NCBI GenBank assembly: GCA_902782645.1
Contig: CACZNV010000078.1
Location: forward strand, 1 to 32,872
DNA from: an uncultured Ruminococcus sp.
Lineage (GTDB): Bacteria; Bacillota; Clostridia; UBA1212
DNA length: 32,872 nt
Direction of reading: 5' to 3'
Part shown: piece after piece, positions 9,633 through 13,085 of the stretch
Numbering within the stretch: position 1 is the stretch's first letter
Layout of the letters: each line of letters starts with the position of its first letter
The notes under the pieces: model-generated
Databases searched by the model: none
Told to the model about the DNA's origin: nothing
The model's input: the letters and a program-made list of their open reading frames with translations, nothing else
Program-made: the position numbers and the translations under genes

Positions 9633-10076
9633 ATGAAACTTAATGATTTAAGACCAGCAGATGGTGCAAAAAGAGACCCCTTCAGAAAAGGCCAGGGCCA
9701 CGGAAGCGGCAACGGCAAGACCGCAGGACGCGGACATAAGGGCCAGAAAGCACGCTCCGGCGGCAACATCAGACCCGGCTTCGAAGGCGGCCAGACTCCG
9801 CTCTACAGAAGAATGCCTAAGAGGGGATTCAATAACAAAATATTTGCTAACCACTATGCGGAAATCAATATCGGCAGTCTTAACTGCTTCGAGAACGGCT
9901 CCGTAGTAGATGCAGCGGCTCTTGTGGAGGCCGGCATCATTAAGAATGTATACGATGGACTCAGCGTGCTTGGCAGTGGAAAGCTCGAAAAGAAATTAAC
10001 TGTCAAAGCCGCAAGATTTTCTAAGTCGGCTGCAGAAAAGATTGAAGGCTTGGGAGGAAAGGCTGAGGTGGTCTGA
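9633..10076 (+). CDS. rplO: Large ribosomal subunit protein L15
   Basis: L15 is a late-assembly 50S protein with a long basic N-terminal extension. The 147-residue product has the glycine-rich signature GHGSGNGKTAGRGHKGQKAR near residues 22-41 and ends in an EGLGGKAEVV segment. AAGGAGG precedes the start. The TGA stop overlaps the secY ATG by one base (TGATG), so SecY synthesis is likely coupled to L15. Confidence 0.98.
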   Translation: MKLNDLRPADGAKRDPFRKGQGHGSGNGKTAGRGHKGQKARSGGNIRPGFEGGQTPLYRRMPKRGFNNKIFANHYAEINIGSLNCFENGSVVDAAALVEAGIIKNVYDGLSVLGSGKLEKKLTVKAARFSKSAAEKIEGLGGKAEVV

Positions 10077-11458
10077 TGGGACTTTGGTCTATTATCACAA
10101 AATCTTTTAAGGAACCTACCATCCGTAAAAAGATTTTCATGACGCTTCTGCTCATCCTTATCTTCAGAATCGGCTGCTTTATCCCTGTTCCGGGTATCAA
10201 CGCAAACGTTGTCTGGAATCTCACCGACACAGGTCTTGCTCAGTTCTGGGATTTGCTGACAGGCGGCGCTATGTCGAACACGTCATTGTTCGCGATGGGT
10301 ATCTCCCCGTACATTAACGCTTCGATTATCATCCAGCTGCTCACAGTTGCAATCCCTGCATTCGAGAAGTGGTCAAAAGAAGGCCCCGAAGGAAGAAAAA
10401 AGCTCTCCCGCATCACAAAATACACTGCTGCGGCACTTGCAATCTTCCAGGCTATCATGCTCTACGTCAACATGAAGAACAACCAGAGCGGCAGCCTTCT
10501 CACAGCAAAATTCGGCGGATCCGCCGGACAGGTATTCGTATTCATGCTCATCGTATTCTCGCTGGTGGCAGGTACTTCATTCCTCACATGGCTCGGTGAC
10601 AAGATCACCGAGGTGGGAATCGGAAACGGTATCTCAATGCTCATCTTTGCGGGTATCATCGCAAGAGCGCCCCAGTGGATCGGAACCCTTATCGCCATCG
10701 CTGTCACAGGAAAGAGCGCATTCACAAACGGTCAGCTTGTTGCAAAAGGTTGGTACAGACACGTACCCCTGGCACTCATAGTGCTCCTGGTATTCCTCGT
10801 TGTTATCGTGGCGGTCGTCTGGATGGAGTCCGGCGAAAGAAGACTCGGCGTTGTATACGCTCAGAGAGTTGTAGGCCGTAAGGTCATGGGCGGACAGAAG
10901 AGCTACATCCCGCTCAAAGTCAACTCCGCAGGTGTTCTGCCGATCATCTTCGCAATGTCGCTGCTCCAGTTCCCCGGAACTATCGCATCGCTCATTAACA
11001 GCAGCAGCGGCGCCGCAAACTGGTTTGCGAACAGCTTCACAAAACAGTGGTGGTACATTATCCTCTACGCAGCGCTCATCATCGGATTCACGTTCTTCTA
11101 CAACATGGTCTACTTTGACCCCAAGGAGTACGCGAACAACATTATTCAGAACGGCGGACAGCTCACAGAGGTCAGATCCGGCAACAGAAAAGTCACAGCG
11201 CAGTACATCGCCAAGATTCAGCGCAAACTCACCTGGTTCGGCTCTATCTTCCTCGCAATCCTCGCAATCCTCCCGAATATCCTCGGAAGCATCTGCGCGG
11301 CAATCCCGTCGCTCCAGAATACCGAATCGCTCAACCTCTGGCTTGGCGGTACATCGATCCTCATTATGGTTGGCGTTGCCCTCGAGACCGTAAGAACTCT
11401 TGAGACTCAGCTTATGATGAGACACTACAAAGCCGGAAAGGGCGGCTTCCTCGGCTGA
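10076..11458 (+). CDS. secY: Protein translocase subunit SecY
   Basis: SecY forms the membrane pore of the Sec translocon with SecE and SecG. The 460-residue product has about ten hydrophobic segments, beginning near residues 18-38. Conserved landmarks include GIGNGISMLIFAGI near 182-195 and the basic cytosolic loop RRLGVVYAQRVVGRK near 256-270. It is some 20-30 residues longer than many homologues, which I place in the external loops. GGGAGG and AGGTGG inside rplO act as the binding site. It keeps its usual place between rplO and adk. Confidence 0.98.
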   Translation: MGLWSIITKSFKEPTIRKKIFMTLLLILIFRIGCFIPVPGINANVVWNLTDTGLAQFWDLLTGGAMSNTSLFAMGISPYINASIIIQLLTVAIPAFEKWSKEGPEGRKKLSRITKYTAAALAIFQAIMLYVNMKNNQSGSLLTAKFGGSAGQVFVFMLIVFSLVAGTSFLTWLGDKITEVGIGNGISMLIFAGIIARAPQWIGTLIAIAVTGKSAFTNGQLVAKGWYRHVPLALIVLLVFLVVIVAVVWMESGERRLGVVYAQRVVGRKVMGGQKSYIPLKVNSAGVLPIIFAMSLLQFPGTIASLINSSSGAANWFANSFTKQWWYIILYAALIIGFTFFYNMVYFDPKEYANNIIQNGGQLTEVRSGNRKVTAQYIAKIQRKLTWFGSIFLAILAILPNILGSICAAIPSLQNTESLNLWLGGTSILIMVGVALETVRTLETQLMMRHYKAGKGGFLG

Positions 11459-11477
11459 TTACACGCCAAGGAAAACC

Positions 11478-11605
11478 CTCAAAGCAATAATATGGCGCCG
11501 TCCCGAAAGAGTCGCGCCTTAACAGTCCGAAAGGGCTTGAAAGGCATGAATCCGGGTCGACGCCATGTTTGAGCCATTGAGGAACCTGAGTTTTCAGGCA
11601 CAAAA
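11478..11605 (+). promoter_or_regulatory. Structured spacer before adk (nested stems)
   Basis: The 166-base gap contains a nested fold. An outer stem CTCAAA (11478-11483) pairs with TTTGAG (11568-11573), and an inner stem ATGGCG (11492-11497) pairs with CGCCAT (11561-11566). They enclose a GAAA-capped hairpin AGTCC/GGGCT (11525-11537). A short hairpin CCTGA/TCAGG follows before the adk binding site. An alternative pairing GGCGC/GCGCC (11494-11518) competes with the inner stem. The layout suggests a regulatory RNA. The family is not recognised. Confidence 0.5.
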
Positions 11606-11624
11606 TACAACCGGAGGAAATTAA

Positions 11625-12278
11625 ATGATTATAATGCTTCTCGGCGCTCCCGGCGCCGGCAAAGGAACCCAGGCTGTAAAGCTTGCGGACATTCTCAATA
11701 TCCCCCACATTTCTACTGGCGATATCTTCAGAGCTAATATCAAAGAGGGAACCGAACTGGGCAAGCTCGCCGCCTCATACATCAATGACGGAAAACTTGT
11801 TCCCGACGAGGTCACAGTTTCAATAGTTGAAGACAGACTCAGAAAGCCTGACTGCCAAAACGGCGCAATACTTGACGGCTTCCCGAGAACAATATACCAG
11901 GCAGAGATGCTTGACAAGTTCCTCGCAGGCGAGGGCAAAAAACTTGACGTTGTAATTAACATCGTCATCGACGAAAAAGAGATAACCGAAAGACTTTCCC
12001 AGAGGCGCGTCTGCCCCGAGTGCAAGGCAACTTACCACCTTGGCCACAGACCTCCCAAGAACGGTCTTGCCTGCGACAACTGCGGAACGGAAGTCATTCT
12101 ACGTGACGACGACAAACCGGATGTCATTCAGAAGAGATTCAAGGAATACCACGAGTCCACAGAACCCCTCGTTGAGTATTACAAAGCCAAGGGCAATCTC
12201 ATTGAGAGCCGGGGCGTGAACGGCATCGAACAGTCTCTCAACAACACAATCAGAGCCCTGATTATGAGGAATTTCTGA
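11625..12278 (+). CDS. adk: Adenylate kinase with zinc-type LID
   Basis: This enzyme interconverts ATP plus AMP and two ADP in the cytosol. The P-loop GAPGAGKGT lies at residues 7-15 and the AMP-binding DGFPRT near 84-89. The LID domain has four cysteines, C130, C133, C150 and C153 (CPEC and CDNC), typical of Gram-positive zinc-stabilised long-form enzymes. The 217-residue length is normal. CGGAGG precedes the ATG. The conserved position after secY is common in Firmicutes. Confidence 0.98.
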   Translation: MIIMLLGAPGAGKGTQAVKLADILNIPHISTGDIFRANIKEGTELGKLAASYINDGKLVPDEVTVSIVEDRLRKPDCQNGAILDGFPRTIYQAEMLDKFLAGEGKKLDVVINIVIDEKEITERLSQRRVCPECKATYHLGHRPPKNGLACDNCGTEVILRDDDKPDVIQKRFKEYHESTEPLVEYYKAKGNLIESRGVNGIEQSLNNTIRALIMRNF

Positions 12279-12320: not shown

Positions 12321-13085
12321 ATGCTCTATACTAAGTCAAAATATGAAATAGAATTGATGAAGGCCGCCGGAAGAATTCTGGCGGAACTTCTCGAGTCACT
12401 CAATGATGTTGTCAGGCCCGGAATCACCACAAAAGAGCTTGACAAATACGCAGAGAGTGTTATAATGAAAAATGGTGCGCTCCCGTCCTTCAAGGGACAA
12501 CCCGGTATTTATGGTGCTCCGCCATTCCCCGCAAGTGTGTGTGCGTCGGTGAATGACGAGATTATCCATGGCATACCGGATAAACGTGTTTTAAAAGACG
12601 GCGATATCGTGACTATCGATGTCGGATGTTCCTACAAGGGGTACCAGGGAGACGCGGCCAGAACTTATGCGGTGGGCAAGTGCAGCGAAGAGACGTCGCG
12701 GCTGGTCAGCGTAACAAGGGAATGCTTTTTTGAAGGCATCAAAAACGCAGTTCCCGGAAAACGCGTGATTGACATCTCCGGAGCCGTGCAAGACCACGCA
12801 GAGTCGAATGGTTACTCTGTCGTCCGTGAATTCACCGGTCACGGAATAGGAAGAGAACTCCACGAAGATCCTGAAGTTCCGAATTACAGGACAAAATACA
12901 AGGGAATAATGCTTATTCCCGGTATTGCCATCGCTGTGGAACCCATGATCTGCGCCGGAAGCTACGCAACAAAGATTGACAAAAACAAGTGGACAGTGAG
13001 AACTGCCGACGGCAAACTCTCAGCTCACTACGAAAACACAATCATTGTTACGGACGGAGAACCCGTAATTACTACGCTGATTTAA
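12321..13085 (+). CDS. map: Methionine aminopeptidase, type I
   Basis: This enzyme removes the starting methionine from new proteins. The five metal ligands of the family are visible as D100, D111, H174, E207 and E238, and the substrate-contact histidine is in NDEIIHGIP (H83). At 254 residues it is a compact type Ia enzyme without an N-terminal SH3-like extension. The ribosome binding site is weak (GGAAG), unlike its neighbours, so translation may be modest. It lies between adk and infA as in many Firmicutes. Confidence 0.97.
   Translation: MLYTKSKYEIELMKAAGRILAELLESLNDVVRPGITTKELDKYAESVIMKNGALPSFKGQPGIYGAPPFPASVCASVNDEIIHGIPDKRVLKDGDIVTIDVGCSYKGYQGDAARTYAVGKCSEETSRLVSVTRECFFEGIKNAVPGKRVIDISGAVQDHAESNGYSVVREFTGHGIGRELHEDPEVPNYRTKYKGIMLIPGIAIAVEPMICAGSYATKIDKNKWTVRTADGKLSAHYENTIIVTDGEPVITTLI

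Follow-up and report, generated by a model that had tools for sequence, protein, structure and literature searches.

A predicted lineage-specific regulatory hairpin in the secY-adk gap of a Clostridia genus, within the S10-spc-alpha cluster

The S10-spc-alpha arrangement is among the most conserved bacterial gene orders, and the products of its ribosomal-protein, secY, adk and map genes are presumably needed in different amounts, which raises the question of where this long operon is divided. The window, i.e. the whole stretch of 32,872 nucleotides that was analysed, contains the S10-spc-alpha ribosomal-protein cluster according to the reading of its open reading frames (ORFs) and belongs to the Clostridia genome G000 (assembly of 2.15 Mb in 180 contigs). 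The closest named Adk among the matches listed was found in a record labelled Mageeibacillus sp. UBA1243 and was 90 % identical. A recurring hairpin between secY and adk, combined with an order-wide promoter inside map, would give a concrete and testable answer to the question of the division. The following features were assigned to the secY-adk region of the window.

10076-11458, plus strand: secY, named from the ORF reading
11459-11624: secY-adk gap, 166 nt
11486-11491, plus strand: 5' flank AATAAT of the conserved core, unpaired or weakly paired, its alignment columns mostly conserved in five species
11492-11503, plus strand: 5' arm of the basal helix, ATGGCG-C-CGTCC, with six basal pairs at probability 1.0
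11504-11554, plus strand: variable tip domain, here with a GAAA-capped hairpin (11524-11528/11533-11537)
11555-11566, plus strand: 3' arm of the basal helix, GGTCG-A-CGCCAT, in which the mismatched A11560 is invariant
11567-11582, plus strand: 3' tail GTTTGRGCC and the next bases, conserved in the alignments, interrupted U-rich with no U-tract
11585-11598, plus strand: second small hairpin CCTGA-GTTT-TCAGG of the centroid fold, preceding the adk ribosome-binding site
11613-11617, plus strand: likely adk ribosome-binding site GGAGG, assigned by sequence and mostly unpaired (unpaired probability 0.50-0.99)
11625-12278, plus strand: adk, named from the ORF reading

The initial annotation had proposed a nested multi-stem RNA in the gap, and the presence of a strong structure was borne out: the gap folded at -57.8 kcal/mol in comparison to a shuffled mean of -38.6 (z = -5.0), and none of 200 shuffles was equally stable. 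Its inner stem, ATGGCG (11492-11497) paired with CGCCAT (11561-11566), had a pair probability of 1.0 and forms the base of the conserved core, where C11498 lies opposite A11560 as a C.A mismatch. The GAAA-capped hairpin at 11524-11537 was likewise recovered, at pair probabilities of 0.86-1.0. The sequence of the second small hairpin (11585-11598) was not conserved and consisted of other letters in other species.

The corresponding gaps of relatives were taken by gene order, Adk matches being found in 25 of the 31 genomes of the order. The core was present in five members of the genus, G000 itself, G001, G004, G002 (contig C180) and G003. It consists of AAUAAUAUGGCGCCGUCC and GGxCGACGCCAUGUUUGRGCC on either side of a variable tip hairpin, and its single C·A mismatch is invariant. 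From a sixth member, G005, neither adk nor secY was recovered. The 5' arm TGGCGCCGTCC was invariant in 5/5 members, with the first A changed to G in G003, and the 3' arm CGACGCCAT was also invariant in all five. In the 3' tail the first base was C in G003 and GCC was replaced by GCG in G004. The arms and tail of the core were identical to those of G000 at 37/45, 42/45 and 37/45 positions in G004, G002 and G003, respectively (80–95 %), whereas the fourfold-degenerate sites of secY and adk were only 36-52 % identical in comparisons with the same three genomes. In the closer G001 the corresponding values were 45/45 for the core and 57-67 % for the fourfold sites. Since the core arms were retained so much better than the silent sites, the core is considered to be under selection, and the sequence comparison indicates that a structured RNA between secY and adk is under purifying selection in the genus.

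The nearly invariant base stem offered little room for compensatory change. Nine of its 11 pairs never varied, two varied on one side or lost the pair and none changed on both sides, so that covariation of the base stem was essentially nil and is uninformative because of the near invariance of the stem. Covariation and homologous sequences in other genomes had been named in advance as the test of the proposed RNA; the homologues were found, whereas the covariation was essentially missing. Support for the structure came from other parts. All six genus versions folded strongly (z from -3.5 to -5.6 in 6/6) and alike, with a stem of 6-8 bp, a 1x1 mismatch and a further helix, while the tip helices changed wholesale: length and sequence of the tip domain varied among the species, yet a hairpin folded in each. 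The sixth of these versions (L029, in G002 contig C94) is a diverged one with a GGCGCC/GGCGCC stem, one G.A mismatch and the tail UCUUUGCCCCUUUAA; it carries the tail TCTTTGCCCCTTTAA, related to the 3' tail of the core, although its alignment to the other versions was done by reading and is ambiguous. As far as modelled folds can tell, the structure is supported by the tip, which varies and always folds, and by the base stem of the diverged version, which uses other letters and is still paired.

These data also bear on the explanation that there is no RNA function at all, the hairpin being a chance structure or a slowly decaying remnant of a terminator. The small number of genomes (five and the one diverged version) and the almost complete lack of covariation would agree with it, but the core was kept while the fourfold sites diverged strongly, and the fold z was strong in each version, which makes this explanation very improbable.

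G002 contributed two secY-adk lineages, on contigs C94 and C180, in one metagenome-assembled genome rated as 9 % contaminated. Their Adk proteins were 71 and 79 % identical to that of the window, respectively, and the two lineages probably represent two organisms of the genus. The 483-nt gap of G002 (L007 / L031) was seen by eye to contain GATGTTTTCGGCTCTTTGCGCA twice and a third partial copy, upstream of the core.

The position of the core within the gap was variable. It lay 62 nt after the secY stop codon in G004, 125 nt in G003 and 346 nt in G002; G004 and G003 had, besides the core, another hairpin close to the stop codon (in G003 recognized by eye). The distance from the core to adk was 54-63 nt in four species and about 278 nt in G003, where the adk start is uncertain.

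The initial annotation had further suggested an outer stem, CTCAAA (11478-11483)/TTTGAG (11568-11573), and a mutually exclusive stem, GGCGC (11494-11498)/GCGCC (11514-11518), typical of switches. The letters of the outer stem do form 6/6 pairs in G000, but its pair probability in the ensemble was 0.0, the ensemble preferring CCTCAA (11477-11482)/TTGAGG (11577-11582) at a probability of 0.86-1.0. On the alignment, all 6 pairs of the annotated outer stem were formed in G000, 5 each in G001 and G004, 3 in G002 and 4 in G003, whereas the stem of the ensemble had 6, 5, 4, 2 and 3 of its 6 pairs in G000, G001, G004, G002 and G003, respectively; overall 76.7 and 66.7 % of the alignment cells were paired for the two stems. 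The observed percentage was reached by 191/500 shuffles for the annotated outer stem together with the base stem and by 76/500 shuffles for the outer stem of the ensemble, so neither outer stem was clearly above its shuffles. In view of this partial pairing and the shuffle counts, G000, G001 and G004 may form an outer closing stem, while in the other genomes such a stem would be weak. The letters of the alternative stem were also present in the window, but its pair probability was 0.0, and for GGCGC a partner was perfect in G000, paired with the help of a single wobble in G001 and of two wobbles in G002, and did not exist in G003 and G004.

The claim that exclusive pairings make this RNA a switch was therefore not upheld, since the alternative stem is given zero weight by the ensemble and finds no partner in two species, the annotated outer stem is complete solely in G000, in whose ensemble it is not used, and variation is greatest in the tip. 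A riboswitch or another ligand-driven conformational switch could be imagined, the RNA being stably structured and followed by a metabolic gene (adk), with an outer stem partly kept (5/6 pairs in G001 and G004). Besides the pairing data, with the outer stem incomplete in all four relatives, no conserved junction or loop appeared in the alignment and no Rfam family matched, in accordance with the earlier observation that no known riboswitch core was recognizable; such a switch is regarded as scarcely credible. The window gave no Rfam match at the gathering score, and the single match at a relaxed threshold (E 9.7) lay on the opposite strand and concerned an unrelated lncRNA model.

The exact form of the core was found solely in one genus. 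BLASTN with the gap gave matches in 3/97 genomes, the own genome included, all of the same genus, and no match to phages. With a covariance model built from the five core copies, matches were obtained in 15/391 class genomes at E <= 1 and in 6/9 family genomes at E <= 10; below E 0.001 there were solely the five core copies and one locus in G003 contig C28. The Infernal-type search that had been recommended thus recovered the core in five genus members but no convincing copy beyond the genus, where weak homologues may have been missed due to the stricter Infernal filters and the scoring of ten candidates per genome in the class search. Ten weakly matching loci were inspected, leaving aside nine class matches (L116-L124, E 0.3-0.9), and none of the ten sits between secY and adk. 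The matches in G128, G147, G007 and G000 contig C171 lie inside ORFs, those in G395 and G401 overlap ORFs, and those in G000 contig C174 and its counterpart in G001 contig C59 lie opposite a long ORF; all were attributed to chance. The two in G003, on contigs C10 and C28, were terminator-like with U-runs.

Two short reading frames in the gap were rejected as leader peptides after inspection by eye. The frame AUGGCGCCGUCC (M-A-P-S) ends after five codons in G002 and G004, shifts in G001 and has no ribosome-binding site at the usual distance upstream, and the second frame, AUGUUUGAGCC (M-F-E-P), meets a stop at codon 5 in G004. The literature listed on secY-adk hairpins, internal terminators, ribosomal-protein leaders and spc-alpha promoters, with few subscription papers among it, showed nothing about the site, and the accessible parts of PMC8060035, PMC7247131, PMC8040213, PMC4495994, PMC8046335, PMC2965389 and PMC11925234 do not mention a secY-adk hairpin.

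The match in G003 contig C28 (30011-30104, E 2.5e-7; L125 1501-1594, minus strand) has the look of an ordinary terminator and lies between two other ORFs. Its 5' part, AATAATGCGGCGCCGTCCC, almost equals the secY-adk core, and this similarity hints at a descent of the core from a terminator stem used in the genus, or at convergence with one. This brings in the main rival of a processing or 3'-end-protecting hairpin, namely a leaky, factor-assisted intrinsic terminator of the NusA/NusG type that allows partial passage into adk-map and has an ordinary terminator as its ancestor, the U-tract being now interrupted (AUGUUUG). The plain terminator of G003 shares ten letters of the 5' arm, GGCGCCGUCC, followed by UUUUUU, and the tail of the core retains UUU. 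According to the accessible part of PMC8060035, NusA/NusG are required by those B. subtilis terminators whose U-tract is interrupted. Moreover, at least 5 T were counted in a generously placed 8-base window in 9/19 gaps of the order and 25/69 others. The hairpin itself, G+C-rich with a z of -5.6 and basal pairs at probability 1.0, would suit a terminator, but the run of U expected right after the stem is absent: AUGUUUGA has 4/8 U in comparison to UUUUUU in the terminator on L125. The number of T among 8 bases of the tail depends on the starting point: it is 4, with A in position 1 and G in position 3, if the count runs from CGCC, and 3 if it runs from after the end of the CGCCAU stem. The interruptions are proximal here but distal in the terminators covered by the accessible part of PMC8060035. 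A canonical terminator is unlikely because of the interrupted U-tract, and leaky termination with the help of factors is considered possible but rather doubtful. A terminator scan of the window that allowed loops of 3-8 found no plus-strand site, which is no evidence here since with such loops the secY-adk hairpin could never have been detected. A terminator census of a G000 sample gave 291 candidates and too many false positives for use.

The secY-adk gaps of other Clostridia were analyzed in a sample of 26 loci from the order and the best 80 of 225 Adk loci in other Clostridia (mainly Lachnospiraceae by title), from which duplicates of G001 and G002 had been removed. The first pass, over gaps of at least 40 nt, gave a z below -3 in 18/19 gaps of the order and 56/68 others; at seven of the 26 loci of the order the gap measured 16-23 nt, which is too short for such a hairpin, and was left unscored. 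In a second pass, limited to the first 150 nt per gap, z was below -2 in 83/88 and below -3 in 67/88 secY-adk gaps; these counts are not independent because the species are related. The control adk-map gaps, mostly short so that 13/94 reach 40 nt, were below -2 in 4/13 and below -3 in 3/13 cases, and the control map-infA gaps, the long ones of which (median 254 nt) may contain another small gene, in 11/57 and 4/57 cases, respectively; both controls are thus imperfect. Within the order, the best simple hairpin had a median length of 14 bp and a median start 15 nt after the secY stop codon; for the other loci the medians were 12 bp and 14 nt. Such distances are expected of a 3'-end hairpin, although the scan picks the best simple hairpin, which differs from the conserved core in 4/6 genus versions (L004-L007). 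At least 6 T in the 8-base tail were found in 12/88 gaps and at least 5 T in 34/88, so that most secY-adk hairpins are not canonical terminators. Judged by these predicted folds, a stable hairpin of some kind is kept at secY-adk by the majority of the Clostridia in the sample. A casual look at gaps L004-L029 and L032-L109 revealed no common sequence beyond the genus.

The other element of the proposed division lies further downstream.

12439-12466, plus strand: sigma-A type promoter TTGACA-N16-TATAAT, 12/12 match, within map and upstream of infA and the alpha-operon genes

It is the sole 12-of-12 site in the window, and a G000 sample contained 7 such sites in 752,354 strand-bases. The 12/12 match was found at the same codons in 24/25 loci of the order, the exception being G006 with 10/12, while the amino acids encoded at the -10 box differ among these loci (VIM, YII, CII, VII, YIM). 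When the codons were replaced by synonymous ones according to local usage, a 12/12 site arose in 50/4800 trials, which puts the chance at about 1 % per locus, the loci of the order being related and not independent. Outside the order, 0/25 scored loci of a first set reached 11 (45 loci, G006 among them, were missed by the motif search) and neither did any of the 19 scored loci of a second set of 30, in which 8 were unscored and 3 came from the order. Judged by its sequence, the site is likely to drive transcription of infA, rpmJ and the alpha operon, and as such it fits the reading of this region as a boundary. The link between hairpin and promoter is not proved and not strict, since hairpins occur outside the order without the promoter.

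The position of the hairpin, at the end of the ribosomal-protein/secY part and the junction with adk-map, suggests a role at the boundary. The favoured explanation, held to be about as probable as not and if anything slightly less, is that the spc-operon mRNA contains an intercistronic stem-loop acting in cis, with a processing, 3'-end-protecting or attenuating function at the spc/alpha boundary. The hairpin would most likely serve as a processing site or as a barrier to 3'-exonucleases that stabilizes the upstream mRNA ending with secY, possibly with some attenuation of transcription, and in this way may decouple the output of adk-map from secY and the ribosomal-protein genes; the promoter inside map would then restart transcription of infA and the alpha operon after the hairpin. 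The core is not simply a hairpin after the stop codon, because G004 and G003 have their own stop-proximal hairpin and the core lies further down. A barrier alone does not explain why the base and flanks were kept letter by letter, since it needs no conservation of sequence. A factor, possibly a protein or a nuclease, that reads the helix with the C.A mismatch would be the simplest addition to the barrier model.

Conservation at the level of letters combined with a variable tip is typical of protein-binding hairpins, and the arms, the mismatch and both flanks show it here. The hairpin could therefore also serve, in the first place, to bind a regulatory protein (a ribosomal or other RNA-binding protein). 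Such a protein would recognize the mismatched stem together with its flanks and would either repress adk or tie it to the operon. Comparison with the 16S, 23S and 5S rRNA of E. coli rrnB, by sequence alone, nevertheless gave a best ungapped 18-mer of 12/18 in the range of shuffled maxima (11-15), i.e. no mimicry in excess of shuffles; no ribosomal-protein leader of Rfam matched, and the distance to adk varies from 54-63 nt to the roughly 278 nt of G003. This explanation is deemed unlikely. Returning to the intercistronic stem-loop, a more specific version of it is a boundary of two parts built into the S10-spc-alpha cluster of the order, in which a selected hairpin ends or processes the spc transcript and the map promoter restarts the alpha operon, the hairpin of the genus being a sequence-specific target of an RNA-binding factor; it is put forward tentatively, as an idea with a minor share of the probability. 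The hairpin itself is real and selected, and is best described as a predicted lineage-specific intercistronic regulatory hairpin.

Among known systems, the leaders of ribosomal-protein genes, e.g. the S4 leader of Clostridia in the accessible part of PMC7247131, resemble the secY-adk element in being structured RNA of the S10-spc-alpha cluster; unlike them, it is not placed directly before a ribosomal-protein gene and has neither an Rfam match nor similarity to rRNA sequence. The NusA/NusG-dependent intrinsic terminators of Bacillus, as presented in the accessible part of PMC8060035, share with it a stem followed by an interrupted U-rich tail, but here the interruptions are proximal, U makes up 3-4 of 8 bases and a C.A mismatch is conserved. 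In the gal operon of E. coli, the hairpin at the 3' end of galE blocks exonucleases at an operon-internal 3' end, according to the accessible part of PMC11925234. Like the galE hairpin described there, the secY-adk hairpin lies inside an operon and would be predicted to generate an internal 3' end or to protect one; what sets the secY-adk hairpin apart is that the base of its helix and its flanks are conserved in sequence across the genus.
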